A DNA stretch of 64,000 nucleotides from Gammaproteobacteria bacterium (GTDB lineage: Bacteria; Pseudomonadota; Gammaproteobacteria; Enterobacterales; Permianibacteraceae): assembly GCA_016182845.1 (NCBI GenBank), contig JACPFT010000013.1:62001-126000 (forward strand), read 5' to 3'. The notes beneath the pieces are model-generated. The model did not search any database. It saw only the letters and a list, made by a program, of their open reading frames with translations, and had not been told where the DNA came from. Positions 241-15,456 of the stretch are shown here, piece after piece. Every line of letters starts with the position of its first letter. Position 1 is the first letter of the stretch. Both the position numbers and the translations under genes were made by a program.

Positions 241-270
241 TTGACTCTGCCGCTAGGGGGATAGTTTAGA
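241..270 (+). promoter_or_regulatory. possible sigma70 promoter for the ACP/KS operon
   Basis: TTGACT at 241-246 matches the -35 consensus at five positions. TTTAGA at 265-270, 18 bases downstream, is a weak -10 candidate. This is the best pair found close to the first gene. The -10 is poor, so the call is tentative. Confidence 0.25.
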
Positions 271-349: not shown

Positions 350-919
350 ATGAACAATCCCCTGGATTTGAGCGAGGTCATCGAGAGCACCCGCGAGATT
401 CTCGCGCAGTTACTGGCCATGGATGTCGAGGATATTTCCGTGGACGCCAGCATCACCGAGGATCTGGGCGCGGATTCCCTGGATATCGTCGATTTGAGTT
501 TCCAGCTCGGCCGGCGCTATGGCTGCGCGCTGCCGAAGATCAACGTCCTGGATCATGCCCAGGCGGTGTGCGGCAGCGTTAGTGCCTTTATCAGCGGCGG
601 CGGCCTGACCGAGGCCGGGATCGCGCTGATGCGCGGCAGCTTGAGCGCCTATTCGGCGGAGCAGCTGCGCCTGGGCATGCGCCCGGCGGAGATCTTCGCG
701 GCGACGACGGTGCGCAATTGGGCGCAGCAGTGTCATAACCTGTTCCAGCACCTGCCGGCGAGTTGCCCGGAATGCGCCGCCAAGCATGCGCAGTTGAACG
801 AGCGCCACCAGGTCGTGTGCAGCGGCTGTAGCGCCCGGCTGTCGCCCGTGGACGGCGACGAGGCCTCGCGCCGGCTGGTCCAGCGCTTTGTCGCCCCGGA
901 CATGAAAGCGGTGGCCTGA
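350..919 (+). CDS. acyl carrier protein with C-terminal zinc-ribbon domain
   Basis: A 189-residue protein. Residues 1-85 look like an acyl carrier protein: the segment around 40-44 (G-A-D-S-L) carries Ser43, the expected phosphopantetheine attachment site, in a helix-rich acidic context. Free-standing ACPs are about 80 residues. Here roughly 100 more follow, with two CxxC pairs (Cys139/Cys142 and Cys157/Cys160) spaced like a zinc ribbon. The ATG at 350 is chosen because AGGAG lies 7 bases upstream and the ACP fold starts directly after it. Its stop overlaps the next start by one base, so it heads the operon. It should carry the growing acyl chain for the ketosynthases downstream. What the zinc ribbon does is unknown; docking of a partner enzyme is my guess. 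Confidence 0.85.
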   Translation: MNNPLDLSEVIESTREILAQLLAMDVEDISVDASITEDLGADSLDIVDLSFQLGRRYGCALPKINVLDHAQAVCGSVSAFISGGGLTEAGIALMRGSLSAYSAEQLRLGMRPAEIFAATTVRNWAQQCHNLFQHLPASCPECAAKHAQLNERHQVVCSGCSARLSPVDGDEASRRLVQRFVAPDMKAVA

Positions 920-2190
920 TGCAACGGGAGGTCCTGGTCACCGGTTACGAGCTGGTCGCGCCCGACGCCCTGGACGCCGCCACGCTGTTCCGGCATATCG
1001 CCGAAGGGCAGTCGGGCCTGCGCGCCCACCCGCGTTTCGAAGCCCTGGGTTTCGCCAATACGGCGGCGGGATTTCTCGACGCGGCGCAGTGGGCCCATAT
1101 CCACGCCGCCACCGCGCAGCTGCCGGGCATCACGCCGCCCCAGGCGCGGCTGGCGGAGTTCGTGGCCCAGGGCGCCCTGGCCCGCGCGGGACTCGTGCCC
1201 GACGATTTTCGGGACTTGCGCGCCGGCTTGTTCCTGGGGGCGAATAAGTTCTGCGCCGACAGCCGGGATTTCGCGGCACTCTGCCCCTGCGTGGACAGCG
1301 TCGAGTTGTTCGACCTGGACCGCCTCCTGGACGAGGTGGCGCCGGTCAGCCATCCCTATGCGCGCCGGGTCGATCAGCAGACCCAGCATCTGGCGGAACG
1401 CCTGGGGGTCGCCGATCAGATCAGCACCCATGCCGATGCCTGCGCGGCCGGCACGGTAGCCATCGGCAGCGCCTTTCGCGCCATCGCCCGGGGCGAGATC
1501 GACATTGCGCTCTGCGGCGCCGTGGAGCTGATGGCCAACGAGCTGCCTTATTACATGTTCAACAGCCTGGGCGCCCTGTGCCAGGCGGAGCTGCCGGCCG
1601 AGCAGCAGAGCCGGCCCTTTCTGCGCGACCGCGCCGGCTTCGTGCTCGGCGAGGGTGCGGCCCTCCTGGTCCTGGAATCCCGTCAGCATGCCGAGCGGCG
1701 CGGCGCGGCCGCCCTGGGCCGGGTCCTGGGTTTTTCGGCCCTCAGCGAGGCCGAGAAGATGACCTCCAGCAGCCGCGACGGCGGCAAATACCTGGCCTGC
1801 ATGCGCGCCACCCTGGACGATGCCCGCTGCAGCCCGGCGGATATCCACCATATCAATACCCACGGCACCTCGACCCAGGCCAATGACAGCTGCGAGGCCA
1901 AGGCCGTGCTCACCCTGTTCGAGGGCCAGCTCGAGCGCCTGACCCTGACCGCCAACAAGTCCGCCATCGGCCATTCCCTGGCGGCCAGCGGCGCCATCGA
2001 GGCCGTGCTGTCCCTGATGTCCCTGAGCGAGGGCCTGTTGCTGCCCACGCTCAATTACCGCGCCGAGGCGGCGGAATTCCCGGCCCTGCGTTTCCTGAGC
2101 GCCGCCGAGCGCGCGCCCATCCACACCGTGCTGTCCAATTCCTTCGGTTTTGGCGGCGTCAACAGCAGCCTCGTGCTGGGGAGGGCCTGA
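919..2190 (+). CDS. beta-ketoacyl-ACP synthase (FabF-like), first KS
   Basis: A 423-residue thiolase-fold ketosynthase. The complete Cys-His-His triad is visible: Cys175 in D-A-C-A-A-G, His315 in T-H-G-T-S-T, and Lys347/His352 in A-N-K-S-A-I-G-H. It should catalyse decarboxylative condensation of malonyl-ACP with an acyl chain. It overlaps the ACP gene by one base and is followed after 2 bases by a degenerate KS, the arrangement of KS/chain-length-factor heterodimers in type II polyketide and aryl-polyene systems. The short N-terminus and closing glycine-rich F-G-F-G-G segment are typical of the family. The distinction between FabF and polyketide KS cannot be made by eye. Confidence 0.9.
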   Translation: MQREVLVTGYELVAPDALDAATLFRHIAEGQSGLRAHPRFEALGFANTAAGFLDAAQWAHIHAATAQLPGITPPQARLAEFVAQGALARAGLVPDDFRDLRAGLFLGANKFCADSRDFAALCPCVDSVELFDLDRLLDEVAPVSHPYARRVDQQTQHLAERLGVADQISTHADACAAGTVAIGSAFRAIARGEIDIALCGAVELMANELPYYMFNSLGALCQAELPAEQQSRPFLRDRAGFVLGEGAALLVLESRQHAERRGAAALGRVLGFSALSEAEKMTSSSRDGGKYLACMRATLDDARCSPADIHHINTHGTSTQANDSCEAKAVLTLFEGQLERLTLTANKSAIGHSLAASGAIEAVLSLMSLSEGLLLPTLNYRAEAAEFPALRFLSAAERAPIHTVLSNSFGFGGVNSSLVLGRA

Positions 2191-2192
2191 GC

Positions 2193-3272
2193 ATGGCCGC
2201 CGCGCCCCGTCCCGTTTACCTCCTGCAATCCGCCCTGCTCAACGCCGCCGGCGACTCGGCGGAGGCCCTGCACGGCCCGGCGCCCGCCGCCCAAGCCCTG
2301 GAATTCGCGCCGGAACGCTTGGGCTTTCCCCTGGCCGCACCGCGCCTACCGGCCGGGCGCTTCGACCGCAAGCTGGCCCGCAGCGTCGAGGCCCAGGGCC
2401 TGCGCCTGTTGCATTGCGCGGCGCGCCTGGGCGATGCCCTGGATGCCCTGGGCCTGGCGCCGGAGCGCATCGCCCTGACCGCCGCCATCCCCGAGGTGGA
2501 TGCCCCCAGCCCCGGCTGGGAGGCGGTGGCGGCCATGCGCGAACAGCCCGGCCACTGGCTGGCCCAGTGGTTCGCCCACACCCCGCCCCTGCACAGCCTG
2601 ACCCTGCTCAATAGCAGCGTCATGGCCCATATCGCCGAGGCCCTGGCCTGCCGGGGTCCCATGGCCGGTTATTGCGGCCAGGACAGCGCGGGGCTCGATG
2701 CCCTGGCGGCGGCCATGCACGCCGTCGCCGAGCACCGGGCCGATGCCGCCCTGGTGGTCAGCGCCAGCCCCAATCTCACTCCAGCCCTGTTCCTGCGCGA
2801 GGCGGAGCTGGAAGACGGCGGCGTCGATTTCCGTCCCGGCGAGGGCGCGGCCGCCTGGCTGCTGAGCGCCGAAGCGCCCGCCGGCCGGCGCGTGCGCATC
2901 GCCGGTTTCGGCCGGGGCTATGTACCGGCCTCCGCCGAGGTCGAGTCCGCGGCCCGGGACTGCCTGGCGCGCGTCATGAACCAGGCCTTAGGCCCCGAGC
3001 GCCTGAGCCTGGGCGATCTGGCGGCGGTCTATAGCGAGCCGGAGGATGTGCTCCTGGGCTGGGCCCTGGGCCGGACCCCAGTGCATGGCGGCGCCCGTCC
3101 CCGGGTCGGCGCCCTGGGCGCCAGCAGCCTGCTCACCGATCTGGCCTATGCCCTGGCCAGCCCGGAGTTTTCGACATTGGAACGGACCGCCTATCTGCTG
3201 TTCCTGAACCGCAGTTACACCGGCCAGGTCGCTGCCCTGGTCCTGGCCCTGGAACCCGGGAGGACGGCATGA
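2193..3272 (+). CDS. ketosynthase-like chain-length factor (inactive KS), first copy
   Basis: A 359-residue KS-fold protein lacking all catalytic residues. The nucleophile elbow reads Q-D-S-A-G, placing Asp164/Ser165 where Cys is expected. The two histidine motifs (T-H-G-T and N-K-x-x-x-G-H) are absent. It is about 60 residues shorter than its active neighbour. Following an active KS directly and overlapping the next KS by four bases (ATGA), it fits the role of a chain-length factor or structural partner. Classical actinorhodin-type CLFs have Gln at the nucleophile position; this one does not, so it belongs to a divergent class. It might instead be a ketosynthase-related protein of unknown activity. 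Confidence 0.75.
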   Translation: MAAAPRPVYLLQSALLNAAGDSAEALHGPAPAAQALEFAPERLGFPLAAPRLPAGRFDRKLARSVEAQGLRLLHCAARLGDALDALGLAPERIALTAAIPEVDAPSPGWEAVAAMREQPGHWLAQWFAHTPPLHSLTLLNSSVMAHIAEALACRGPMAGYCGQDSAGLDALAAAMHAVAEHRADAALVVSASPNLTPALFLREAELEDGGVDFRPGEGAAAWLLSAEAPAGRRVRIAGFGRGYVPASAEVESAARDCLARVMNQALGPERLSLGDLAAVYSEPEDVLLGWALGRTPVHGGARPRVGALGASSLLTDLAYALASPEFSTLERTAYLLFLNRSYTGQVAALVLALEPGRTA

Positions 3273-4564
3273 ACCCGCCGCGTATCGTGATCACTGGCCT
3301 GGGCGCCGTCACCGGCTTCGGCTTCGAATGGCAGGGGCTTTGGTCGGACATGCTGCGCGGCCGGCATTGCATCCGCCCCTGGCAGCCGGAAGGCGTGAGC
3401 GAGGGCAGTTTCCCGGTGCGTTATGCCGCGCCGGTGGATTGGCAGCGCCTGCCCGCCTATCTGCGCAGCCACCCGGCCCTGGCCGGCGAGCTGGAACGGC
3501 GCACGCGCTTCGGCTGGCTGGCCGCGAGCCAGGCCCTGGCCGACAGCCGCCTGGGCTATGCCCATTGGCGCGACGTGGCGGTCCTGGCGGCCTCCGGCGC
3601 GCCCCAGCACAGCCTGGACGACATGCAGCTGGCCTTCGCCGATGGCGAGACGGCGCCGAGCTGGAAATCGGTCATGCGCCACGCGGCCTCGGTGCGCGGC
3701 GATGCCTCCCTGCGCCAGAGCAGCGACCGCCTGGCGCGGGTGATCGCCGACGAGCTGGGCAGCGCCGGGCCGGTGATGAATGCCAGCAGCGCCTGCGCCG
3801 GCGCCGCCCAGGCCATCGGCAATGCCTTCCATATGCTGCGCCGGGGCGAGTGCGAGCTGGCCCTGGCCGGCGGCGCCGATTCGGTGCTCAACCTGGACAC
3901 CCTGGGCGCCCTCTACCTGCTGGGCGCCGCCAGCACGGAGACCCGCCGGGGCGAGGCCCTGTGCCGGCCCTTCGACGCCGGGCGCAGCGGCCTGGTGGCC
4001 GGCGAGGGCGGCGGTTTCCTGATGCTGGAAACCCTGGAACACGCCCTGGCGCGCGGCGCCAAGCCCTATGCCGAGATCCTGGGCTATGGCAGCAGCCTGG
4101 ACGGCTACCGGCTCACCGCCCCCGAGCCCGAGGGCCGGGGCGCGAGCGAGGCCATGGCCGCCGCCCTGGACGATGCCGGCATCGCCCCGGAGCGGGTCGA
4201 TCTGGTCAATGCCCATGGCACGTCCACGCCCCTGAACGACCGGGCCGAGACGCTCGCCATCAAGCGCGTCTTCGCCCGCGACCAGCATTACCGCCAGCTG
4301 AGCGTCGCCGCCAATAAATCCCAGTTCGGGCATTTGATCGCCGCCGCCGGAGCGCCGGAGCTCCTGGTGAGCGCCCTCTGCTGCCGGGAGGACTGGGTGA
4401 CGCCCACCCTCAACCTGGACGAACCCGATCCGGATTGCGATCTGGACTACACCGCCCACAAGGCCCGTCACCGGCGCGTGGATATCGCGCTCAGCAATTC
4501 CTTCGGCTTCGGCGGGCTCAACACCGCCCTGGTCCTGGGCAAATACCGGAGCGATGCGTCATGA
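3269..4564 (+). CDS. beta-ketoacyl-ACP synthase (FabF-like), second KS
   Basis: A 431-residue ketosynthase with an intact active site: Cys176 in S-S-A-C-A-G-A, His316 in N-A-H-G-T-S-T, and Lys350/His355 in A-N-K-S-Q-F-G-H. ATGA overlaps on both sides (with 2193-3272 and 4561-5814) imply translational coupling. It is a second condensing enzyme, clearly diverged from the first KS. The two may act at different chain lengths, or one may start and the other extend. The C-terminal F-G-F-G-G segment is conserved. An acyl-specific starter role cannot be judged from sequence. Confidence 0.9.
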   Translation: MNPPRIVITGLGAVTGFGFEWQGLWSDMLRGRHCIRPWQPEGVSEGSFPVRYAAPVDWQRLPAYLRSHPALAGELERRTRFGWLAASQALADSRLGYAHWRDVAVLAASGAPQHSLDDMQLAFADGETAPSWKSVMRHAASVRGDASLRQSSDRLARVIADELGSAGPVMNASSACAGAAQAIGNAFHMLRRGECELALAGGADSVLNLDTLGALYLLGAASTETRRGEALCRPFDAGRSGLVAGEGGGFLMLETLEHALARGAKPYAEILGYGSSLDGYRLTAPEPEGRGASEAMAAALDDAGIAPERVDLVNAHGTSTPLNDRAETLAIKRVFARDQHYRQLSVAANKSQFGHLIAAAGAPELLVSALCCREDWVTPTLNLDEPDPDCDLDYTAHKARHRRVDIALSNSFGFGGLNTALVLGKYRSDAS

Positions 4565-5814
4565 GCTTTTCTTTCGCCCGGCGGCCGCAAGCCCAGGCCG
4601 CCATCGCCCTGGCCGGTGCCGGCTGCGTCCTCGCCACCGGCATCGGCAGCGCCGCGCTCTGGGAGGCCGCCTGCGCCGGCCGTAGCGGCATAGGCCCGCT
4701 CCAGGCCAAGCATTTCCGCAGCCGCCGCATCGCCGCGTTCGGCCATGTGGGCGAGGCCGAGCAGGAGCACTGCCGCGCGGCCCTGCCCGCCCATCTGCTG
4801 CGCTACGCGCCGCCGCCGGTGGCCTGGGGCCTGGCCGCCGTGCGCCAGGCCCTGGCGGAGGCCGGGCTGGAGCCCCAGGCCTCGGGCCTGCGCTTCGGCC
4901 TGTACACCAGCCAGGGCGGCTACACCCATCCCTCCCTGGATGCCTATGCGGAACTGCTGCACGAATGCCGCGCCGGGAACGAGCTGGATGCCCGCCGCCT
5001 GGCCGCCCGGGTCCTGCAGGAGCGCGCCCTGGATCCCTTCCTGGTGCTGAAGAGCCTGAGCAATGGCCTCCTGGGCATCGTCAGCCTGGCCTACAAGCTG
5101 GAAGGCCCCTGCGGCGCCTATATGCAGGGCGTGGCCGGCAACCATGCGGCCCTGCGCGAGGCCTGTGCCGCCCTGCGCGAGCGGCGCATCGACGCCGCCA
5201 TCGTGGTCGCCGCCGGCAGCGAGTTGGATGCACTGGCCCTGGCCGATCTGGCGCGCGCCGGGGTCATCGCCGCCGACGGCGCCACGGACTTCCGACCCTT
5301 TGACCGCGCCGGACGCGGCGGCATCGCCGGCGAGGGCGCCGCCGCCCTGGTGCTGCGCCGCCAGGCGGATCTGGCCGCCCCCGAGGCGGTCTGCCTGACC
5401 GAGCTCCACGCCCAGGCCCAGCTGCGCGGCCTGGCGTCGGCGCAAGGCGGCTGCGAGCTGCTGATCGCCAGCGGCTGGGCCCGGCCCGAGGCGGATCGGC
5501 GCCTGGCCGGGAGTCTGGCCCGCTTCGCGCCCCGTCATATCGGCAACAGCCAGGCCCTGACCGGGATCCTGAGCGGGGCGCCCAGCCTCGCCGACCTGGT
5601 CCTGGCACGCCAAGCGCTGCAAGCCCAGCGCGTGCCCGGGATCGCCGGCTTGCAAGAGCCGGTCAGCCCGGATCTGCCCTTCGCCCGCGCCAGCCGGGAC
5701 GCGCCGCTGCGCCAAGCCCAGGTGCTCAATGTCGAGGGCAATGGCTTCGCCGCCTGCTACCGCCTGGAACGCCTGCCGGCGCCCGCCCATTCCACGAACC
5801 GCATCACCCTCTAG
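4561..5814 (+). CDS. ketosynthase-like chain-length factor (inactive KS), second copy
   Basis: A 417-residue KS-fold protein starting at the ATG that overlaps the previous stop. An earlier in-frame start exists but lies within the previous gene. The catalytic elbow reads M-Q-G-V-A-G, with Gly190 at the Cys position and Gln189 beside it. The first His motif is missing, and the second reads A-L-T-G-I-L-S-G without the His. It therefore cannot condense by the normal mechanism and most likely pairs with the KS encoded directly upstream. Together with 2193-3272 it gives two KS/CLF-like pairs in one operon. Confidence 0.75.
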   Translation: MSFSFARRPQAQAAIALAGAGCVLATGIGSAALWEAACAGRSGIGPLQAKHFRSRRIAAFGHVGEAEQEHCRAALPAHLLRYAPPPVAWGLAAVRQALAEAGLEPQASGLRFGLYTSQGGYTHPSLDAYAELLHECRAGNELDARRLAARVLQERALDPFLVLKSLSNGLLGIVSLAYKLEGPCGAYMQGVAGNHAALREACAALRERRIDAAIVVAAGSELDALALADLARAGVIAADGATDFRPFDRAGRGGIAGEGAAALVLRRQADLAAPEAVCLTELHAQAQLRGLASAQGGCELLIASGWARPEADRRLAGSLARFAPRHIGNSQALTGILSGAPSLADLVLARQALQAQRVPGIAGLQEPVSPDLPFARASRDAPLRQAQVLNVEGNGFAACYRLERLPAPAHSTNRITL

Positions 5815-5827
5815 GAAGCCTGCCACC

Positions 5828-8692
5828 ATGGATTACCGCGATTACGTCCGCCCCAAATACGTCGAGCTGATGCAGGCCCTGGGCCTCACCCGCCAGTTCC
5901 ACCGCGCCCGCTGCAGCAAGCTGTACTACCGGGATGCCCAGGGCCAGGAGCAGGCCGTCACCGATTTCCTCGGCGGCTATGGCGCGGCCCTGTTCGGCCA
6001 CAACGATCCGGAATTCGTCGAGGCCATGTGCCAGATGCTCGGCGAGGGCGTGCCCTTCAATGCCCAGATGTCGGTGCGCGGCGCGGCCGGCGAGCTGGCA
6101 CGCGAGCTGTCGGCCGCGCTCAATGCCGAGCTGGGCAGCTCGGAACGCTATATCACGACCTTCTCCAATAGCGGCGCCGAGGCGGTGGAAATCGCCGTCA
6201 AGCATGCCGAGTTCCGCCGGCAAAAATGCCTCCAGGAATGTTTCGATGCCATCGATGTCGAGCTGGCGGCCCTGTCCAGCGGCGATGCCGCCTACGAGGA
6301 ACTGGAATTCGCCGGCCTGGACCTGCCCGCCGGCCTGCTGCCGGACAGCCAGGCCTATGGCACGCTGCGCCAGCTCGCCGAGGCCCTGCGCCAGCACAAC
6401 CAGGCGCTCTGCCAGAGCGAGCCGGTGTTCGTCGCCCTGCGCAAGAGCTTCCACGGCAAGCTGGTCAATACCGTGCAGCTGACCCATGGCAAGCAATACC
6501 GCAAGCCCTTTTCGCGCTTCGGCCTGCGCGTGGAGTTTCTGGATCCGGAACAGCCGGAACAGCTGGAAGCCCTCAAGGCCCGCCACCGCCGGGAATGGCT
6601 GGGCCTGCGCCGCCAGGACGGCCGCCTGGAACTGCGCCGCGAGGCCTTCAGCGGCATCGCCGCCCTGCTCATGGAGCCCATCCAGGGCGAGGGCGGCATC
6701 AACGAATTCCCCGGCGAGTTCCACCTGGCCCTGCGCCGCTTCTGCAACGAGCTGGCCTGCCCGCTGATCATCGACGAGATCCAGTCCGGCTTCGGCCGCA
6801 CCGGCAGCCTCCTGGCCAGCAGCCGCTACGGCATCCAGGGCGATTACTACTGCCTGTCCAAGGCCCTGGGCGGGGGCCTGGCCAAGATCGCCGCGACCCT
6901 GATCCGCAGCAGCCATTACGAGACGGATTTCAGCTATATCCACAGCTCCACCTTCGCCGAGGACGATGCCTCCTGCCGCATCGCCCTGCTGGCCCTGCGC
7001 CGCCTCCAGGCCCAGGACGGCGCCCTCTTGCGCGACATCCGCAGCAAGGGCAGCTATCTGAAAGCCGCCCTGGAGGACCTGCAACAGGCCTATCCGCAGG
7101 TCATCAAGGCCGTGCGCGGCCAGGGCCTGTTACTGGGCATCGAGCTGCACGATGTCTCGGCCAGCCCGTCCATGGTCCAGGCCTCGGCCCAGTACAACGA
7201 GGCCCTGGGCTATCTCATCGCCGGCTATCTCTTGCAGCACGAGGCCCTGCGCGTCGCGCCCTCGGGCAGCAATGCCAATGTCCTGCGCCTGGAGCCGCCG
7301 GCCACCATCAGCCTCGCCGAGATCGATACCCTGATCACCGCCCTGGGCCGGGTCTGCGACTTCCTGCAGCGGGGCGATGCCCTGCCCCTGGCGGCCGGCG
7401 TGCTCGCCGATCTCGCCCCCGAACTCGCCCCGCGCCAGACCGATTTCCGCGGCGCCGATGCCCCGGTCCCGGCCGAAGGCCGGGTGGTGGCGAAGGTGGC
7501 CTTCATCAACCATTTGATCGACACCGACATGCTCAGCGAGGTGGATCCCTCCCTGGCGCCCTTGAGCGCCGCCCAGAAACAGGAATTCGTGACGCGCATG
7601 AAGCCGGAGCGCCGCGCCGTGCCCATCGGCCCGGCCCGGATCCGTTCGGCCCTGGGCAGGGCGGTGGACTTCACGCTCTATCCCCTGTGCATGGACTCCC
7701 AGGCCATGGCCGCCTACCTGGCCAGCGGCGAGCTGGAGCCGATCCGAAAGGAGATCGCCGAGCGCATCCGCGATGCCCGTGCCGACGGCTACCGGGTCGC
7801 CGGCCTCGGCATGTACACCTCCATCGTCACCAACAACGGCCAGGCCCTGGACATCCCCGACATGGCCCTGACCTCGGGCAATGCCCTGACCATCGGCATG
7901 GGCCTGGAAGCCATCGAGCAGGCCTGCGCCCAGCAGGGCCTGAACCTGGCCGAACAGACCGCCGCCATCGTCGGCGCGGCCGGCAATATCGCCTCCACCT
8001 ATGCCTCCCTGCTCTCGGCCAAGGTCGACCGCCTGCTGCTGGTCGGCAGCGGCCGCGAGGGTTCGCTGCGCCGCCTGGAGCGCACGGCCCACCAGATCTA
8101 TGCCGATGCCGCCCGCACCATCGCCCAGGGCCGGGCCGCCGGCGATCGCCTGGCGACGCGCCTGATGGAGCGGCCGGAAACCGCCGCCCTCCTGGCCCGC
8201 GAAGCCGATGCTCCGGATCTGGGTAAACGCCTCTACGCCCTGGTGGCCGATCTCCTGGGCGATAAGGCCTGGGTGCTGCTCTCTGACGAGCTCGCCGAGC
8301 TGAAGCGCGCGCGCATCGTGGTCTGCGCCGCCAATGCCCCCGAGGCCTTCCTGGGCGGCGAACACTTCGGCTCCGGCAGCGTGGTCTGCGATATCGCCGT
8401 GCCGCTCAATGTCCGCGCCGAGGTCGCCGCACAGCGCCCGGATCTCGTCTACCTGCTGGGCGGCATCGTGCAGACGCCCCTGGGCGACGGCCTGGCGCCG
8501 ACGGTGCGCGCCTATCTGGGGGCCGATCAGCTCTATGCCTGCATGGCCGAGTCGGTGCTCATGGGCCTGTCCGAAACCAAGAGCCACTTCTCCTACGGCG
8601 ACATCAGCCGCGAGCAGGTGCAGCAAATCCGCGCCCTGGCCGCCGCCCACGGCTTCCGCCTGGCCCAGTTCAAGACCTGCAACTCGCTGTAA
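5828..8692 (+). CDS. class III aminotransferase fused to acyl-ACP-reductase-like domain
   Basis: A 954-residue two-domain protein, starting at 5828 after an AGGA ribosome site. Residues 1 to about 545 are a fold-type I, class III PLP aminotransferase: E-P-I-Q-G-E-G-G at 283-290, Asp316 in I-I-D-E-I-Q, and Lys345 as the expected PLP lysine. Residues from about 600 to 954 resemble the cyanobacterial long-chain acyl-ACP reductase: a Rossmann segment G-A-A-G-N-I-A-S at 716-723 and Cys905 in L-Y-A-C-M-A-E, matching the M-F-A-C-F-A-E context of the reductase's catalytic cysteine. The natural reading is that the reductase releases an ACP-bound chain as an aldehyde and the aminotransferase converts it to a primary amine. 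Tambjamine and prodigiosin pathways use reductase-aminotransferase proteins of related logic; the domain order here appears different. Confidence 0.85.
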   Translation: MDYRDYVRPKYVELMQALGLTRQFHRARCSKLYYRDAQGQEQAVTDFLGGYGAALFGHNDPEFVEAMCQMLGEGVPFNAQMSVRGAAGELARELSAALNAELGSSERYITTFSNSGAEAVEIAVKHAEFRRQKCLQECFDAIDVELAALSSGDAAYEELEFAGLDLPAGLLPDSQAYGTLRQLAEALRQHNQALCQSEPVFVALRKSFHGKLVNTVQLTHGKQYRKPFSRFGLRVEFLDPEQPEQLEALKARHRREWLGLRRQDGRLELRREAFSGIAALLMEPIQGEGGINEFPGEFHLALRRFCNELACPLIIDEIQSGFGRTGSLLASSRYGIQGDYYCLSKALGGGLAKIAATLIRSSHYETDFSYIHSSTFAEDDASCRIALLALRRLQAQDGALLRDIRSKGSYLKAALEDLQQAYPQVIKAVRGQGLLLGIELHDVSASPSMVQASAQYNEALGYLIAGYLLQHEALRVAPSGSNANVLRLEPPATISLAEIDTLITALGRVCDFLQRGDALPLAAGVLADLAPELAPRQTDFRGADAPVPAEGRVVAKVAFINHLIDTDMLSEVDPSLAPLSAAQKQEFVTRMKPERRAVPIGPARIRSALGRAVDFTLYPLCMDSQAMAAYLASGELEPIRKEIAERIRDARADGYRVAGLGMYTSIVTNNGQALDIPDMALTSGNALTIGMGLEAIEQACAQQGLNLAEQTAAIVGAAGNIASTYASLLSAKVDRLLLVGSGREGSLRRLERTAHQIYADAARTIAQGRAAGDRLATRLMERPETAALLAREADAPDLGKRLYALVADLLGDKAWVLLSDELAELKRARIVVCAANAPEAFLGGEHFGSGSVVCDIAVPLNVRAEVAAQRPDLVYLLGGIVQTPLGDGLAPTVRAYLGADQLYACMAESVLMGLSETKSHFSYGDISREQVQQIRALAAAHGFRLAQFKTCNSL

Positions 8693-8701
8693 GGAGGCGT
8701 C

Positions 8702-9454
8702 ATGAACGAAGCGCAACGCCTGAAAAAAGTCGCCGTGGTCACCGGCGGCAGCCGGGGCATAGGCCGCGCCTGCGTGCGGGCCCTGGCTGAAGCCGGCTAC
8801 CGCCTGGCCTATAGCTATGTCCAGGACGAGGCCGCTGCCCAGGCCCTGTCCGCCGAGCTGGAAAGCCAAGGCCGGGAGCACCTGGCCCTGCGCTGCGACA
8901 TCGCCGACCCGGACCAGGTCGCCGCCTTCTTCGGCCAGGTGGAGGCCCGCTTCGGCCGCCTCGATGTCCTGGTCAATAACGCCGGCATCATCCGCGACGG
9001 CCTCCTGGCCAACATGGCCTATGCCGACCTCGCCCAGGTGATCCAGACCAACCTGGTGGGCCCCATGCTCTGCTGCCAGGGCGCCATCCCCGCGATGATG
9101 CGCCAGCGCAACGGCTGCATCGTCAATCTCAGTTCCGTCGCGGCCCAGAAGCCCGGCAAGGGCCAGAGCAATTACGCCGCCGCCAAGGGCGGGGTCGAGG
9201 CCCTGACCCGCGCCCTGGCCGTGGAGCTGGCGCCGCGCAATATCCGCGTCAATGCCATCGCCCCGGGCATCGTCAACACCGGCATGAGCGCCGCCCTGGT
9301 GGACGCCCAGGCCCCGGAAATCCTGAGCCGCCTCCTGGTCAAGCGCCACGCCGAGCCGGAGGAAATCGCCGAGGCCGTGCTCTTCCTGGCCGAACGCGCG
9401 CCCTATATGAGCGGCGAGGTCCTCGCCCTCAACGGCGGGTTGAAGATGCCATGA
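8702..9454 (+). CDS. 3-oxoacyl-ACP reductase-like SDR (FabG family)
   Basis: A 250-residue short-chain dehydrogenase. It shows the N-terminal nucleotide motif G-G-S-R-G-I-G, the N-N-A-G motif, an S-S near residue 143 and a Y-A-A-A-K catalytic Tyr/Lys. A strong GGAGG ribosome site lies 3 bases before the start. It should reduce beta-keto groups on ACP-bound chains with NADPH. It overlaps the next SDR by four bases. Reduction of the aldehyde released by the preceding protein is an alternative substrate. Confidence 0.88.
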   Translation: MNEAQRLKKVAVVTGGSRGIGRACVRALAEAGYRLAYSYVQDEAAAQALSAELESQGREHLALRCDIADPDQVAAFFGQVEARFGRLDVLVNNAGIIRDGLLANMAYADLAQVIQTNLVGPMLCCQGAIPAMMRQRNGCIVNLSSVAAQKPGKGQSNYAAAKGGVEALTRALAVELAPRNIRVNAIAPGIVNTGMSAALVDAQAPEILSRLLVKRHAEPEEIAEAVLFLAERAPYMSGEVLALNGGLKMP

Positions 9455-10215
9455 GTCAGACCCGCCACATCCTCATCACCGGCGCCGCCCAGGGCATAGG
9501 CCGCGCCGTCGCCGAACGCTTCGGCCAGGAACCGGGCAACCGCTTGATCCTCCTGGACCGGGATTCGGCCGCCTTGGGCCAGTGGCTGGAGACGGCGGGG
9601 CTCGCCGCCGAGGTCCATGCCCATGCCGCCGACATCGCCGATCTGGAAGGCCTGCGCACGCTGTTCCGCGAGCTGGAGCGGCGCCACGGCCATGTGGATG
9701 TCCTGGTCAACAGCGCCGGGATCTGCGACGAGAACGAGCCGGAGGACATCGCCGCCTGGCACAAGGTCATCGCGGTCAATCTGCACGGCAGTTTCTATGT
9801 CTGTGCCCTCGCCCAACCCCTCTTGGCCGACGGCGGACGCATCATCAACATGGCCTCCATCCTCGGCCGGGCCGGCAAGCAGCGCAACACCGCCTACTGC
9901 GCCTCCAAGCACGGCCTGGTGGGCATGACCAAGGCCCTGGCCCTGGACCTGGCGCCCCGACGCATCACGGTGAACGCCATCCTGCCGGCCTGGATCGACA
10001 CGCCCATGCTGCAACAGGAACTGGCCCTGCAGGCCAGCACGGCTGGCCTGAGCCTGGAGCAGATCCAGCGCAATGCGCGCAAGAAACTGCCCCTGCGCCG
10101 CTTCATCGAATCCGAGGAAGTGGCGGCCCTGGCCCACTACCTGGCCAGCCCCGAGGCCGCCGGCCTCACCGCCCAGAGCCTGGTGCTGGACGGCGGCGTG
10201 GGACTGGGGATGTGA
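9451..10215 (+). CDS. second SDR-family oxidoreductase (FabG-like)
   Basis: A 254-residue SDR with G-A-A-Q-G-I-G, N-S-A-G and Y-C-A-S-K motifs, so it has the complete cofactor and catalytic signature. It is translationally coupled to the previous SDR (ATGA overlap). Sequence similarity between the two is moderate, so they are not a recent duplication and probably act on different intermediates. Possible roles are a second ketoreductase or an alcohol/aldehyde oxidoreductase acting on the released chain. Confidence 0.85.
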   Translation: MSQTRHILITGAAQGIGRAVAERFGQEPGNRLILLDRDSAALGQWLETAGLAAEVHAHAADIADLEGLRTLFRELERRHGHVDVLVNSAGICDENEPEDIAAWHKVIAVNLHGSFYVCALAQPLLADGGRIINMASILGRAGKQRNTAYCASKHGLVGMTKALALDLAPRRITVNAILPAWIDTPMLQQELALQASTAGLSLEQIQRNARKKLPLRRFIESEEVAALAHYLASPEAAGLTAQSLVLDGGVGLGM

Positions 10216-10217
10216 GC

Positions 10218-11465
10218 ATGCGTCCGCTTTCCCTACTGGCCTTGCTGCTGGCGCCGCTTGGCGTTCGGGCCGCGCCCGATTACTGGGACGCGGAGCTGGG
10301 CATCGCCCTGGCGACGCGGCTGCACGGCGAGGATCGGCTGTTCCAGCGTTCCACCCAACTCTTGGCCACCCTCGAGGATTCCTGGGGCGAGGTCTACCTC
10401 AAGGCCAAGGGCCGGGCGCGCTACGACTTCCGCTACGAGGGCGAACATCCCTACGGCGAGGCCGCCGAGGAGGCCTACCGGCATGACGCCGACTGGCGCC
10501 ATCTGTACCTGGGCATGCCCCTGGCGGAGGGCGAGCTGACCCTGGGCTGGCAGCAGGTGGTCTGGGGCCGGGCCGACGAGCTGCGCGTCCTGGACCAGGT
10601 CAATCCGGTGGATTACCGCTGGGGCGGCACGGCCCTGCTGGACGACAGCCGCATCGCCCTGCCCATGCTGCGCTATACCCGTACCAGCGGCGACTGGGAG
10701 TGGGAGGCCCTCGCCGCCGGCAGCCGGAAGAACCGGGCTCCGGAACCGGGCAGCGAGTTCGACTCGCCCGTTTTCGCCGCCCCGGACCCGGCCTACTTCC
10801 ACGCGCTCCCGCCCGAGGACGACCGCGGTCTCGCCTACGGCCTGTCGGCCAACGGCCGGCTGGGCGAGATCGACGCCAGCTTCGTGGCCTTGAGCGCCCG
10901 CCAGTTCGACCCGGTGTACGCCAGCCTAGGCCCGGACCCGGACGGACGCCTGGCTGTCCGCGCCGAACACCCGCGCTACACCATGCTGGGCACGGGCCTG
11001 GCCGCCGATCTCGGCAACAGCCTGGTGCTGCGCGGCGAGCTGGCCTATTTCGACCGCTGGCGGGTCGCCAACCCCAGCCGCGAGACGGGCAGCGACGAGA
11101 CCGCCCAGATCAAATCCCTGCTGGGCATCGACTACCTGGTCCGGGAGTGGCTGATTTCCGGCCAATGGCAGGGCCAGCGCCTCCTGGACTGGCGCGAGGG
11201 CATGCTCGGCGCACGAAGCGAGCATGTGTTCACGCTCTCCGCCGAGGGCAGCCATGCCCAGGATCGCCTGAAGAGCCGCTTCCTGCTGGCCTTCTCCCCG
11301 CCGGCCGGCGACGACGCCTGGCTGCAGGGCCTGTTCAGCTACAAGCCGGCGGACTGGTTGAAGCTGGGCCTGGAAATCAATGTGTTTTTCGGGACCGATA
11401 CGACGATGTTCGGCGCCTACGACCGCCGCGACCACCTGCGCCTTTCCGCCGCCTATGTGTTCTAG
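10218..11465 (+). CDS. outer-membrane beta-barrel protein (DUF1302-like)
   Basis: A 415-residue protein with a cleavable signal peptide (hydrophobic residues 4-17, A-x-A site near 19). Alternating aromatic and polar residues are typical of an outer-membrane barrel, and the last residue is an aromatic Phe. The segment W-G-R-A-D-E-L-R-V-L-D near residues 117-127 resembles DUF1302-type porins that accompany LolA-like and MMPL genes. It starts 2 bases after the previous stop. It probably provides the outer-membrane exit for the operon's product; substrate and direction are inferred from context. Confidence 0.72.
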   Translation: MRPLSLLALLLAPLGVRAAPDYWDAELGIALATRLHGEDRLFQRSTQLLATLEDSWGEVYLKAKGRARYDFRYEGEHPYGEAAEEAYRHDADWRHLYLGMPLAEGELTLGWQQVVWGRADELRVLDQVNPVDYRWGGTALLDDSRIALPMLRYTRTSGDWEWEALAAGSRKNRAPEPGSEFDSPVFAAPDPAYFHALPPEDDRGLAYGLSANGRLGEIDASFVALSARQFDPVYASLGPDPDGRLAVRAEHPRYTMLGTGLAADLGNSLVLRGELAYFDRWRVANPSRETGSDETAQIKSLLGIDYLVREWLISGQWQGQRLLDWREGMLGARSEHVFTLSAEGSHAQDRLKSRFLLAFSPPAGDDAWLQGLFSYKPADWLKLGLEINVFFGTDTTMFGAYDRRDHLRLSAAYVF

Positions 11466-11495
11466 AGCCTCTAAAAGGGGCATGAGGAGTTTGCC

Positions 11496-12332
11496 ATGTT
11501 CACACCGCTGAAAATCCTGTCCGCGACCCTGATGCTAAGCCTGTCCGCCAGTGCCGTAGCAAGCGCGGAAACCGATGCCGACGCCATCATGCGCGCCGTG
11601 CGCGATCGCGACGACGGCCGGAGTTTCCTGTCCCAGGTGTCCCTCATCCTGCACGACAAGAACGGCAATGCCCGGACCCGGGAATTCCTCTATTTGCAGA
11701 AGGATTATCCGGAGGGCGACAAGTTCACCATGTTCTTCTCCGCCCCCGCCGATGTGCGCGACGTGGCCTTCCATATCGAAAACCCCAAGGAAGCCCAAGG
11801 CAGGGAAGACAGCCAGTGGATGTATCTGCCGGTGAGCCGCCAGACCCGGCGCATCTCCACCAGCGACAAGCGCGGCGCCTTCATGGGCAGCGAATATTCC
11901 TATGCCGATCTGGACAAGGTCCGCGTCGGCGATTACCGCCAGAAACTTGTCGGTGACGAGGTCCTTCTGGAGCGTCCCTGCCATGTGATCGAACGGGAGC
12001 CGGCCTCGCCGGAAACCCTGACCAAGACCGGCTACAACAAGCTGAAGGTCTGGGTCGACAAGGAAAACCACCTGGTGATGCGCCAGGATTTCTTCGACGT
12101 CAAGGGCGTTCTCGTCAAGCAGATGCGCACCCTGTCGGTGGCCACGATCGACGGCATAGACAGCATCATGCTCAGCGAAACCGAGCATTTCATCGACGGT
12201 ACGCGCTCGGAAATGCGCTTCAACCAGCTCAAATACAATATCGAGCTGGATGACAAGCTATTCACCCAGGCGGCCATACGGCGCGGCCTGAAAGCCGGCG
12301 ATCTGCCGGAAAACGCCCTGTCCTCGCTCTAA
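11496..12332 (+). CDS. LolA-like periplasmic outer-membrane lipoprotein-sorting family protein
   Basis: A 278-residue protein with a signal peptide (residues 1-24, A-S-A site). The mature part looks like the LolA-like fold that binds lipidated cargo: regularly spaced beta strands and the conserved segment W-M-Y-L-P with R-R-I following. A GAGGAG ribosome site precedes the ATG. Genes of this family nearly always sit beside an MMPL/RND transporter, as here. It likely shuttles a hydrophobic product across the periplasm from the transporter to the outer-membrane barrel. Confidence 0.75.
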   Translation: MFTPLKILSATLMLSLSASAVASAETDADAIMRAVRDRDDGRSFLSQVSLILHDKNGNARTREFLYLQKDYPEGDKFTMFFSAPADVRDVAFHIENPKEAQGREDSQWMYLPVSRQTRRISTSDKRGAFMGSEYSYADLDKVRVGDYRQKLVGDEVLLERPCHVIEREPASPETLTKTGYNKLKVWVDKENHLVMRQDFFDVKGVLVKQMRTLSVATIDGIDSIMLSETEHFIDGTRSEMRFNQLKYNIELDDKLFTQAAIRRGLKAGDLPENALSSL

Positions 12333-12350
12333 GCCGGAGTGCGCCCCGCC

Positions 12351-14942
12351 ATGGAACGCTATCTCGATTTCGTCGAGCGCCACGCGCGCAGCCTCATCGC
12401 CATCCTGGTGGCGATCACCCTGTATTTCGGTTACGTGCTCGGAACCCTGATCTCCGACACCAACCCCTATTTGCTCAAGGAGGACCACCCGGCGCGCAAG
12501 ACCATCATCGAGCTGCAGGGCGAATTCACCGGGACTTACGATTCGGTGATGATCGCCCTGCATAATAAAAATGGGGTCTTCAAGCGCGACAGCCTGAACG
12601 CCCTGTATTCCCTGTCCCAATCGGCGCGCAAGGTGGTGCTCAGCACTGTGGAAGATGCCGACCAGCTGATGCTGATCACCGGCAAATACCCGGAAGACGA
12701 GACCGCTCAGCGGCTCGCCGAGGCCATGCTCAAGGACGGCCTCGCTCAGAATGACTACGCCGACGCCAAGGCCCTGCGCGAGCATGCCAAGGCCAAGGAC
12801 TGGAGCGCCCACGACCAGCAATTCCTGAGCTTCCTCGCCGAGCGCGTCAACCCGATCCGCGAGATGGCCTCCATGGCCGATCTGGAAAACATCGTCCTGA
12901 CCGACGAGGGCGAGCTGGTCATCCACAAGACCCTGCGCGCCTTCGACATGCCGCCGTCCGAGGTCGAGCGGGAAATCATGGGCAACGAGCTGATGCTGGA
13001 CGGCGTCGTGTCCGAGGACAAGACCGTCGCCCTGCTGGTGGCCGAACTGGGCACCAAGCAGGACGACGCCATCGCCCAGTTGCGCGCCTACCGGATATTC
13101 CGCGATATGGTCGCCGATTACCAAAAGGCCCACCCGGAATTGCAGGACGAGATCTTCATCGCCGGCATGCCCATCTTCATCGGCGCCCAGCAGGAAATCA
13201 TCGACCACGATCTGGGCCTGCTGTTTCCCATCGTCTTCCTGATCGTCACCGTCCTGCTGCTGATTTTCTTCCGCAAGCCCCTGGGCGTCATGCTGCCCCT
13301 GTTCAATATCCTGTTTTGCACCATCTGGACCCTGGGGCTCATGGCCTTGTTCGAGGTGCCCATCGATCTGCTGACCTCGGTCCTGCCGGTCTTCCTGTTC
13401 ACCATCTGCTGCGCCGACGCCATCCACGTCATGGCCGAGTATTACGAGCAGCGCGCCGCCGGGAAAACCAACCGCGAGGCCAACCGCGCCACCCAGCGCC
13501 TGATGGTCACGCCCGTGGTGCTGACCACGGTCACCACCATCGGCACCTTCCTGATTTCCACCACCACGAATATCACCAGCATCCGTAATTTCGGCGCCTT
13601 CATGTCCATAGGACTGACCGTGGCCTTGATCATCTCCCTGCTGCTGATCCCGGCCTGGATTTCCGCCTGGGGCCGCGACGGGAAAATCGAGAACAAGGTG
13701 CGCCGCGAATCCCTGATCTCCCGCGCCCTGGTAGCCGCCTGCGCCCATCTCATCGCCCGCCGCAAGCTCTGGCTGACCGTCCTGGTCCCGGCCATGGCGG
13801 TGATGACCGTACTGACTTTCCGCGTCGACATCGAGGATTCCGGCATCGCCTATTTCAAGCCGGACAATCCCTTCCGTATTTCCGACCAATTCATCAACGG
13901 CCATGTGGCGGGCACCGCCCCCGGCTGGATCGCCATCGACAGCAAGACGCCGCGCGGCGTGCTCACCACCGAGACCCTGAGCTTCATCGACGAGCTGGAT
14001 CGCTACATCAAGTCCCAGCCGGAAATCAGCTACGGCTATTCCCTGGCGACCTATGTCAAGCGCATGAACCTGGTGCTCAATGACATGGATCCACGCTACA
14101 ACCGGGTGCCCGGGCCCAAGGAACTCCTACAGTCCCGCGACGAATCGGGCCAGAAGGAGAGCTTCGAGGTCGACGGCAATGCCCTGATCGGCCAGCATGT
14201 CGTGCTCTTCGAAAATGGCGGCGGCTCGGACTTGAGCAATGTGCTCAATGCCGATTATTCCAAGGCCCTGACGCTCTACACCCTGACCACCTCGGTGGCC
14301 AGCGACTACACCCGTTTCCTGGAAAAACTCGATGCCTGGCTCGCGGTCCACAAGCCGGCCCATCTCGACATCACCCACGCCGGAACCCCGGTGATCTGGA
14401 CCGGCGTGCTCCAGGAAATCACCCGGGGCCAGGTCCTGAGCTTCAGCCTGGCGACCCTGGTGGTCACCCTGATGATGATGGCCTGGCTGAAGTCGGTGCG
14501 CCTGGGCGTCCTGGGCATGCTCACCCTGTTGACCACTTCGGTCACCCTCTACGGCTGCATGTATTTGTTCGGCATCGAGCTGAATATCGGCACGGCCCTG
14601 GTGACCTTCCTGGTGGTGGGCGTGGTGGATTACGCGGTGCACCTGCTGTCGCGCATCAAGCACTTCGTGGAGCGGGGCGTGGCCGTCGACGAGGCCACGC
14701 TCAAGGCCATGCACACCGTGGGCCGCTCCACCGTGGTCAATGTGGCGATCTTCTCCACCGGCTTCCTGGCCCTGCTGTTCTCCGACTACAAGCCCATCAT
14801 CGACCTGGGCGCCCTGGTGGCCCTGGCCTTGTTCACCAGCGGCGTGATGACCGTGCTCGTCGTCACCCTCATCGCCCCCTGGTTCTTCGTGGCGCCGGCG
14901 GCGGAGCCCGCCTCCCTGACGGCCGCCGAGCAGGTCTCCTAA
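12351..14942 (+). CDS. MMPL/RND-family lipid exporter
   Basis: An 863-residue inner-membrane transporter with the two-fold RND layout: one N-terminal helix (about 14-31), a large periplasmic domain, five clustered helices (about 285-440), then the same plan repeated (helix near 470, domain, helix cluster to about 855). The conserved segment S-D-T-N-P-Y-L near residue 35 is common in MMPL proteins. ATG 12351 is preferred to the in-frame GTG at 12339 because GGAG lies 11 bases upstream and the N-terminus is then standard. MMPL exporters move lipids and aryl polyene-like products. It closes the operon and is the likely exporter of its product. Confidence 0.85.
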   Translation: MERYLDFVERHARSLIAILVAITLYFGYVLGTLISDTNPYLLKEDHPARKTIIELQGEFTGTYDSVMIALHNKNGVFKRDSLNALYSLSQSARKVVLSTVEDADQLMLITGKYPEDETAQRLAEAMLKDGLAQNDYADAKALREHAKAKDWSAHDQQFLSFLAERVNPIREMASMADLENIVLTDEGELVIHKTLRAFDMPPSEVEREIMGNELMLDGVVSEDKTVALLVAELGTKQDDAIAQLRAYRIFRDMVADYQKAHPELQDEIFIAGMPIFIGAQQEIIDHDLGLLFPIVFLIVTVLLLIFFRKPLGVMLPLFNILFCTIWTLGLMALFEVPIDLLTSVLPVFLFTICCADAIHVMAEYYEQRAAGKTNREANRATQRLMVTPVVLTTVTTIGTFLISTTTNITSIRNFGAFMSIGLTVALIISLLLIPAWISAWGRDGKIENKVRRESLISRALVAACAHLIARRKLWLTVLVPAMAVMTVLTFRVDIEDSGIAYFKPDNPFRISDQFINGHVAGTAPGWIAIDSKTPRGVLTTETLSFIDELDRYIKSQPEISYGYSLATYVKRMNLVLNDMDPRYNRVPGPKELLQSRDESGQKESFEVDGNALIGQHVVLFENGGGSDLSNVLNADYSKALTLYTLTTSVASDYTRFLEKLDAWLAVHKPAHLDITHAGTPVIWTGVLQEITRGQVLSFSLATLVVTLMMMAWLKSVRLGVLGMLTLLTTSVTLYGCMYLFGIELNIGTALVTFLVVGVVDYAVHLLSRIKHFVERGVAVDEATLKAMHTVGRSTVVNVAIFSTGFLALLFSDYKPIIDLGALVALALFTSGVMTVLVVTLIAPWFFVAPAAEPASLTAAEQVS

Positions 14943-15015: not shown

Positions 15016-15456
15016 TCAGCTCGCCATGGCGCTGGCTTTTTTTTCCGGGCCGGCCGCGCGCACCAGATGGCATTCTTCCTTGGCGTCCTGCAGGCTGTTC
15101 TCGAACTCTTCGAGGCCGATGTAAAGCTGCTGCATGCCGGCGATCTGCTCCCTCAGCTCGCGCTTCTTGCGCTGGATCTCGCGTTGGGCCAGCTCCCAGG
15201 GAAAGGCCGCGCCGTTATAGCCCCGGAGGATAGCCTGCAGTTCCTTGAGCTTGAAGCCCAGGGTCTGCGCGCACTTGATGAAGCGCAGCACATCGACGCT
15301 CTCCTGGGTATAGACGCGGTACTTGCCCTTGCGCTCCGCCGGCGGCAGGAGGCCGATGTCCTCGTAATGGCGAATGCTCTTGATGGTGGTTCCCGACAAC
15401 TGGGCCGCTTTTCCGATATACACCCTGTAGTCTCCCGTTCCTGGTTGGTGGGGCAT
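15016..15456 (-). CDS. MerR-family transcriptional regulator
   Basis: A 146-residue protein. Residues 11-80 form the MerR winged helix: I-G-K-A-A-Q-L-S-G, then I-R-H-Y-E-D-I-G-L-L and Y-R-V-Y. A long charged dimerisation helix follows (about 90-130) with a short tail containing a single Cys. The lack of paired metal-binding cysteines argues against a CueR/ZntR-type metal sensor. It is convergent with the biosynthetic operon and divergent from yqgE, so its target is not obvious. Sensing a small organic molecule is possible but unsupported. Confidence 0.85.
   Translation of the reverse strand: MPHQPGTGDYRVYIGKAAQLSGTTIKSIRHYEDIGLLPPAERKGKYRVYTQESVDVLRFIKCAQTLGFKLKELQAILRGYNGAAFPWELAQREIQRKKRELREQIAGMQQLYIGLEEFENSLQDAKEECHLVRAAGPEKKASAMAS

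Follow-up and report, generated by a model that had tools for sequence, protein, structure and literature searches.

A kec-type aminotransferase-reductase fusion, its gene cluster and a candidate MerR-family regulator in a gammaproteobacterial contig

The stretch of DNA analyzed here (hereafter the window, 64,000 nucleotides of contig JACPFT010000013.1 from the Gammaproteobacteria bacterium assembly GCA_016182845.1) encodes, at positions 5828 to 8692, a protein in which a class III aminotransferase is followed by a domain related to acyl-acyl carrier protein (acyl-ACP) reductases (AAR). With a probability of roughly 0.9, its sequence and neighborhood identify the gene as kecF of a koreenceine-type cluster, whose polyketide would be released by reduction and transamination to give a keto-amine that cyclizes to a tetrahydropyridine alkaloid. 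Enzyme and cluster are real, intact and of an already known kind. In addition, a MerR-family gene at the end of the cluster and a site before its first gene, kecA, look like an undescribed switch of the cluster.

Domain make-up and active sites of the fusion protein

5828..8692, + strand: kecF-type fusion of an aminotransferase (N-terminal) and an acyl-ACP reductase (C-terminal), from profile, alignment, tree and fold matches

The 954-residue open frame starts with the ATG at 5828, shortly downstream of an AGGAAG sequence. Residues 32-508 match Aminotran_3 (aminotransferase class III, PF00202) in a Pfam scan with an E-value of 3.2e-60, and the nearest solved structure for this part is CrmG, both by sequence (5DDS, phmmer E 2.2e-93) and for the full-length structural model (8JT3, Foldseek E 4.4e-47). 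Among the matches listed for the full-length fold search, all fell in the aminotransferase part, and the C-terminal domain was therefore folded alone. The resulting model (mean predicted local distance difference test score, pLDDT, 91.7) superimposes on the acyl-ACP reductase structure 6JZU with Z 33.9 and a root-mean-square deviation of 2.7 over 324 residues (Foldseek E 3.4e-20), followed by entries named "TAD from Carmabin Biosynthetic Pathway" (best Z 31.3), after which scores fall to Z 13.6. Sequence comparisons point the same way: the C-terminal 435 residues match the acyl-ACP reductase 6JZQ in the PDB (phmmer E 9.1e-9), the N-terminal part of PigE (4PPM, sequence search, E 3e-17) and the NCBIfam model TIGR04058 for long-chain acyl-ACP reductases (AcACP_reductase, E 4.1e-17), the last with 62.5 bits against a far higher family cut-off of 449.7. 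With a profile built from 36 relatives (36 rows), the C-terminal part reaches 6JZU/6JZQ at E 1.9e-39 and PigE 4PPM at E 2.6e-45, the latter over residues 3-335 in two stretches. The likeness of the C-terminal part to acyl-ACP reductases is beyond chance. Pfam, phmmer, profile and fold matches thus bear out an earlier, sequence-only reading of this DNA, which had placed an aminotransferase N-terminal to an acyl-ACP reductase domain and would have been contradicted by a C-terminal half with no detectable similarity to such reductases; the TIGR04058 and 36-row profile matches are the opposite of that outcome.

The predicted catalytic residues stand in the contexts SKALGGG (Lys345) and YACMAES (Cys905), and Cys905 aligns with the catalytic cysteine of AAR, the column being occupied by Ser in 6JZZ, a C294S mutant. 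Conservation was assessed in a 61-row alignment holding the window protein, relatives from 52 of 80 contig loci (numbered L001 onwards) and 8 of 9 other relatives, with two pairs of identical rows; the remaining 28 loci were left aside, 27 by choice and L100 for a stop codon. Lys345 (61/61), Glu283, Asp316, Gly716, Gly719 and Glu908 are invariant, and position 905 is Cys in 58 rows and Gly in three. The third Gly of the nucleotide-binding motif is Ala in the window protein, as it is in 24 of the 61 rows with the window included. When the 28 omitted loci were aligned singly, both the lysine and the cysteine were found in all 28, the C-terminal reading of L067 (seven stops in frame) being unreliable and L100 carrying one stop near its end. 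The earlier view that both residues sit in canonical contexts and that both active sites look intact is therefore upheld.

The kec-type gene cluster and its proposed product

The fusion gene lies within a complete, colinear kecA-kecK set spanning 350-14942, its other members being:

350..919, + strand: kecA, acyl carrier protein with a four-cysteine (CxxC...CxxC) tail (PF00550, E 1.1e-10; start picked by eye)
919..2190, + strand: kecB, ketosynthase with Cys-His-His residues (PF00109/PF02801; motifs read by eye)
2193..3272, + strand: kecC, chain-length-factor-like ketosynthase without the active Cys (weak PF00109 match, E 2.5e-4; aligned motif; colinearity)
3269..4564, + strand: kecD, ketosynthase with Cys-His-His residues (TIGR03150, E 1e-100, under the equivalog cut-off; motifs by eye)
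4561..5814, + strand: kecE, chain-length-factor-like ketosynthase without the active Cys (PF00109, E 1.8e-20; motif; start picked by eye)
8702..9454, + strand: kecG, FabG-like ketoreductase (PF13561, E 3.9e-66; 67-76% identity in 23 Pseudomonadaceae kec-type loci)
9451..10215, + strand: kecH, FabG-like, short-chain dehydrogenase/reductase-type reductase (PF13561, E 6.2e-55; colinear in relatives)
10218..11465, + strand: kecI, DUF1302 protein (PF06980, E 3.8e-8, N-terminal 162 residues only), probably an outer-membrane barrel, ending in Phe
11496..12332, + strand: kecJ, LolA-like/DUF1329 protein (PF17131, E 3.3e-49)
12339..14942, + strand: kecK, exporter of the MMPL/resistance-nodulation-division type (PF03176, E 5.6e-28)

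A further frame at 10700-11485 was rejected as a gene, since it overlaps kecI in another frame and its tblastn matches (35-49%) are most likely a shadow of kecI. The order (acyl carrier protein, ketosynthase, chain-length-factor-like protein, ketosynthase, chain-length-factor-like protein, fusion, two FabG-like reductases, DUF1302, LolA-like and MMPL proteins) is that described for the koreenceine cluster, which comprises an acyl carrier protein, two alternating pairs of ketosynthase and chain-length factor (KS/CLF), an aminotransferase-reductase, two ketoreductases and three membrane or transport genes (PMC6498172; the papers on koreenceine, tambjamine, prodigiosin and MerR systems are cited here from excerpts). 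In P. putida KT2440 the kec cluster is PP_2777-PP_2787, and 230 homologues with comparable clusters have been counted (PMC10829540). An assignment to a tambjamine or prodigiosin cluster was rejected, as the neighbors are kec-type and the PigE domain order is absent.

By analogy with these systems, the type II polyketide synthase KecA-E and the ketoreductases KecG/H would assemble an acyl chain of medium length on the carrier protein KecA. From its AAR homology and from PtTamH, the C-terminal domain of the fusion would take over the chain as a Cys905 thioester and reduce it to the aldehyde with NAD(P)H, and the N-terminal domain, with pyridoxal phosphate on Lys345, would transaminate the aldehyde with an amino-acid donor, as suggested by its class III family and by assays of PtTamH and PpKTFusion. 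The keto-amine would then cyclize spontaneously to a tetrahydropyridine alkaloid, as in the published koreenceine proposal, and KecI-K would form an envelope export set.

The best biochemical precedent is PtTamH, the fusion from the tambjamine YP1 pathway of Pseudoalteromonas tunicata, which has a like domain order and whose K340 and C887, as described in PMC9594044, play the roles of Lys345 and Cys905. In vitro, PtTamH makes the C12 amine from C12-ACP, using NADH and L-Glu, and does not accept C12-CoA (PMC9594044). Given this precedent and the intact sites, the earlier proposal that one polypeptide, combining an aminotransferase with an AAR-type reductase, turns acyl-ACP into an amine is very probably right. 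Its corollary, that no free aldehyde arises, finds no support, since omission of L-Glu from the PtTamA-PtTamH cascade gave detectable C12 aldehyde (PMC9594044); channeling of the aldehyde between the domains is possible but unsupported. Because PtTamH used NADH, NADPH being ineffective, the NADPH named in the earlier reading may not be the cofactor of the window enzyme. PtTamH differs further in its tambjamine pathway, in an ACP that lies inside PtTamA and in its tam (bipyrrole) cluster context, in place of which the window has kec-type neighbors; it is 28-32% identical to the PpKTFusion set (PMC10829540).

The order of the two domains had been taken as reversed with respect to reductase-aminotransferase proteins. 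This is true against PigE of prodigiosin biosynthesis, both of whose domains are homologous to those of the window protein (the N-terminal part of which resembles the 4PPM aminotransferase) in the opposite order; against the PigE-type model NF053554 the window protein scores 293.5 bits, far under the cut-off of 850. The aminotransferase-first order is, however, neither unusual nor new, having been published for KecF of the koreenceine cluster (PMC6498172), for PpKTFusion (PP_2782) and three thermophile homologues in a paper that also discusses domain swapping (PMC10829540), and for PtTamH (PMC9594044). Compared by their descriptions, KecF of P. koreensis and PpKTFusion of P. putida KT2440 have the aminotransferase-AAR order and the cluster order in common with the window, whose host is of another lineage (see below). 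The cyanobacterial AAR (6JZQ/6JZU) shares the fold and the catalytic-cysteine context at about 20% identity; it is a stand-alone enzyme that feeds aldehyde deformylating oxygenase, whereas the reductase of the window is part of a fusion.

Several observations weigh against the koreenceine-type assignment and the chemistry attached to it. The Pfam scan, at an E-value of 0.001, returned no match for the C-terminal part, and the scanned cluster genes include no identified dehydratase or enoyl reductase gene, so that those steps would be left to fatty-acid synthase. PpKTFusion has transaminase activity, but in the excerpts of PMC10829540 its reductase activity is undetermined, its C-terminal domain is negative for alcohol dehydrogenase activity, and KecF is without an in vitro assay. 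PigE in cell lysate turned a thioester into a cyclized amine, whereas the purified enzyme yielded no product when given thioester and NAD(P)H (PMC8341465). Finally, Cys905 is replaced by Gly in Streptomyces sp. CHD11, Embleya hyalina and Streptomyces sp. YIM 98790, and the chain length of the organism's product might not be that of koreenceine.

The last two points lead to two other explanations. If the C-terminal domain were an inactive remnant, the protein would be solely an aminotransferase, as the Gly residue in these three relatives and the lack of measured reductase activity for KecF and PpKTFusion (in the excerpts of PMC10829540) could suggest. This is highly improbable: Cys905, Gly716, Gly719 and their surroundings are intact in the window protein, Cys905 is kept in 58 of 61 rows, and the reductase domain of PtTamH acts on acyl-ACP (PMC9594044). 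Loss of Cys905 in homologues, which the sequence-only reading had singled out as evidence that would count against it, occurs only in these three rows, which form a single Streptomyces/Embleya clade on a long branch, and is thus confined to a side branch in which the reductase is perhaps dispensable. Alternatively, the enzyme chemistry could be as proposed while the cluster makes another amine, with a different chain length or as an uncyclized fatty amine of the kind found in tambjamine biosynthesis. PtTamH, with its identical domain order, does yield an open-chain C12 amine (PMC9594044), and the chain-length-factor-like KecC (48-55% identity to Pseudomonadaceae loci) and KecE (49-61%) are the least conserved of KecA-K and could set chain length. 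Against such a product stand the full kecA-K set with two KS/CLF pairs and the clustering of the window protein with KecF-type Pseudomonadaceae proteins in the tree, which together make it unlikely, and a koreenceine-type alkaloid remains the preferred product.

Two side observations concern proteins of this section. The Gly905-type relatives (actinobacterial loci L082, L083 and L089), whose reductase domain is apparently dead, lie beside very large frames, and the 1647-residue stretch directly upstream of the Embleya copy (L083, the only one scanned with Pfam) is a type I polyketide synthase. The CxxC...CxxC tail of KecA, which is zinc-ribbon-like, is present in 38 of 48 translated KecA frames, the other ten being eight Xenorhabdus or UBA3532 types and two frames broken off early (L030, L042); it may account for the "unusual predicted structure" of PP_2777 noted in PMC12490732.

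Relatives, distribution and host lineage

Over its whole length the fusion is 67-72% identical to proteins of 23 Pseudomonadaceae kec-type loci (68-72% for the eight aligned), and in tblastn searches KecA-K are present in 22 of these 23 at 48-78% identity, L034 being cut by the contig end. In the tree, the window fusion forms a nine-row clade with eight Pseudomonadaceae rows (Atopomonas, Stutzerimonas and Pseudomonas) with a Shimodaira-Hasegawa-like approximate likelihood ratio (SH-aLRT) support of 100, separate from the Cellvibrio/Zoogloea/Streptomyces and Xenorhabdus fusion types; as the tree comes from a quick search and has many long branches beyond the kec clade, this nine-row clade alone is relied on. 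Across all 80 loci, a kecD ketosynthase match was found by tblastn beside the fusion in 51 (L021-L069, L075 and L086), a few of which are cut short where the contig ends. The other 29 are not kec-type, four of them (L082, L083, L089 and L100) having weak ketosynthase matches only. Streptomyces and Xenorhabdus loci show no kecI-K in tblastn searches, in agreement with PMC6498172, and L099, from Pseudomonas sp. PIC25 (37-38% identical), is a Pseudomonadaceae fusion without kec genes.

The fusion is rare in genome samples, occurring in 2 of 398 genomes of the phylum (E 1e-60) and in 5 of 369 of the class and 5 of 394 of the order (both E 1e-100), with the genome of the window included each time. 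Among three genomes of the family, the reductase domain was found in that genome only, the other two being without it. For the RpoB protein of the host, identity is 77% with a same-family genome and with Stutzerimonas, 76% with Pseudomonas and with Atopomonas, 75% with Xenorhabdus, 74% with Cellvibrio, 72% with a same-order genome and 68-69% with Massilia, Undibacterium, Zoogloea and Chitinimonas. These values make a gammaproteobacterial host probable. With 76-77% to the three Pseudomonadaceae genomes and 77% to the family member, the host is therefore near the Pseudomonadaceae and not clearly inside them, and horizontal gain of the cluster by the host lineage is a plausible guess. The enzyme adds a moderately diverged example, apparently of non-Pseudomonadaceae origin, to the KecF-type catalysts that turn acyl-ACP into amine, and is useful for sequence-function comparison in amine biocatalysis.

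Outside the kec-type loci, the fusion occurs beside PPDK_N/PEP-utilizer and phosphatidylserine decarboxylase genes in Massilia (L073), a patatin/NTE-like gene in Calditrichia (L077) and a fatty acid desaturase gene in Pseudomonas sp. PIC25 (L099), flanks that hint at other amine lipids. In a Chromatiaceae bacterium (L098:2078-11122; an identical fusion is found in L014) the aminotransferase-AAR cassette forms the C terminus of a 3014-residue nonribosomal peptide synthetase that also carries a condensation domain, two AMP-binding stretches, a PilZ domain (residues 1778-1872) and two carrier stretches before its Aminotran_3 and reductase domains. PilZ here separates an AMP-binding core from the C-terminal portion of that core, which suggests cyclic di-GMP control of the assembly line; one literature search for PilZ-bearing nonribosomal peptide synthetases, requiring four terms together, found no paper.

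A MerR-family gene and the site before kecA

241..268, + strand: predicted MerR-type promoter/operator upstream of kecA (TTGACT, dyad, TTTA), from pattern and conservation
265-272: TTTAGATT block by the kecA promoter site
15016..15456, - strand: MerR-family regulator, predicted regulator of kecA (PF13411, E 5.8e-17), after kecK on the opposite strand

In 21 Pseudomonadaceae loci a MerR gene with 60-70% identity likewise adjoins kecK. Read from the sequence, with hexamers chosen by the author, the spacing from TTGACT to TTAGAT or TAGATT in the site before kecA is 19 or 20 bp, respectively, and spacers of 19-20 bp are typical of MerR promoters (PMC9909328). The dyad is imperfect, scoring 7 in the window and 7-10 in other rows with the site. 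A pattern fitted to the site of the window matches once in the window and not at all in shuffled sequences; with up to 3 mismatches it has a single match in the 3.82-Mb genome, at kecA, and none in a reversed control. Between the window and the 23 Pseudomonadaceae loci, mean identity is 0.80 in the site against 0.37 and 0.38 in the 40-nt flanks.

Co-occurrence of site and regulator was assessed within 400 nt upstream of kecA (355 nt in the window) in 48 rows, the window plus those loci, 47 of the 80, in which kecA was matched. With the first promoter pattern, the window matched only at 4 substitutions, and at up to 3 the kecA sites of L022, L030, L033 and L035 were missed; the looser pattern TTGACT-N16-19-TTTA was picked after those sequences had been read. 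This pattern was found before kecA in 22 of the 22 rows with this MerR (window included), which are related and hence not independent, and in 2 of the 26 without it, against a background expectation of 0.0037 per 400 nt. As to the two exceptions, the L024 genome encodes elsewhere a MerR of 67% identity, the matched stretch of which contains one TGA, and the L034 contig ends before the merR region.

Taken together, these data predict that the MerR protein is an activator devoted to the alkaloid operon, which it probably turns on through the long-spacer promoter before kecA; it may be a thiol sensor. Cys62 (residue 51 if numbering begins at the Pseudomonas start) and Cys129 are present in all 22 MerR rows. 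NmlR/AdhR thiol sensors have a single conserved cysteine, numbered Cys52/54 (PMC4776306), and the metal-binding loop of CueR and CadR has two (PMC9909328); since there is no other conserved cysteine near Cys129, metal sensing seems less likely. The protein scores 37.8 bits against the NmlR model (cut-off 175) and higher, 73 bits, against that of CueR (cut-off 147.4), both below cut-off. In its full form, that the operon has its own MerR-family activator beside kecK, which acts on kecA from a single long-spacer promoter and responds to a thiol-reactive signal (an electrophile, quinone or aldehyde) through Cys62 with or without Cys129, the proposal is tentative, its chances being less than even. 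If true, the alkaloid antibiotic would be made in response to chemical attack and, in Pseudomonas, would be paired with a flavodoxin-fold reductase under a like site.

The same evidence could be read as an incidental adjacency, with the MerR gene and the promoter site unlinked to the alkaloid operon and the regulator serving a neighboring gene. Of the 23 Pseudomonadaceae kec-type loci, 18 carry the site a second time, on the far side of merR; in the two loci looked at, this copy precedes a Flavodoxin_2 protein (L021, by Pfam) and a protein of similar sequence (L025). A mutant screen for loss of inhibition, moreover, found CbrA and a CysB-family regulator, with no MerR named in the excerpts of PMC6498172. 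On the other side, the whole-genome search with the fitted pattern found no second site in the genome of the window, where the sole match precedes kecA; merR is kept beside the cluster even though the gene that follows it in the window encodes a DUF179 (AlgH-like) protein; and the association of 22/22 versus 2/26 rows holds, if among related loci. An unlinked regulator is accordingly judged quite unlikely, and control of kecA by the MerR protein is retained as the working prediction.

In the excerpts of PMC6498172, PMC9239112, PMC6401489, PMC9586298, PMC10682437 and PMC10829540 no MerR regulator of the cluster is named, which does not prove its absence from print; two mentions of "MerR" are irrelevant, being the author of a plant name (PMC9584964) and a reference title (PMC9239112). 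Transcript and metabolite data show koreenceine genes and products responding to partners (PMC9239112, PMC6401489), and an encounter with F. johnsoniae raises the koreenceine levels of P. koreensis (PMC6401489), so that production is in some way inducible. The MerR gene with its site would offer a direct, testable handle on what turns koreenceine on.

Elsewhere in the window, positions 54931-57756 on the - strand encode a 941-residue SNF2-like helicase close to DISARM DrmD (NF038318, 648 bits, cut-off 950), a possible defence locus.

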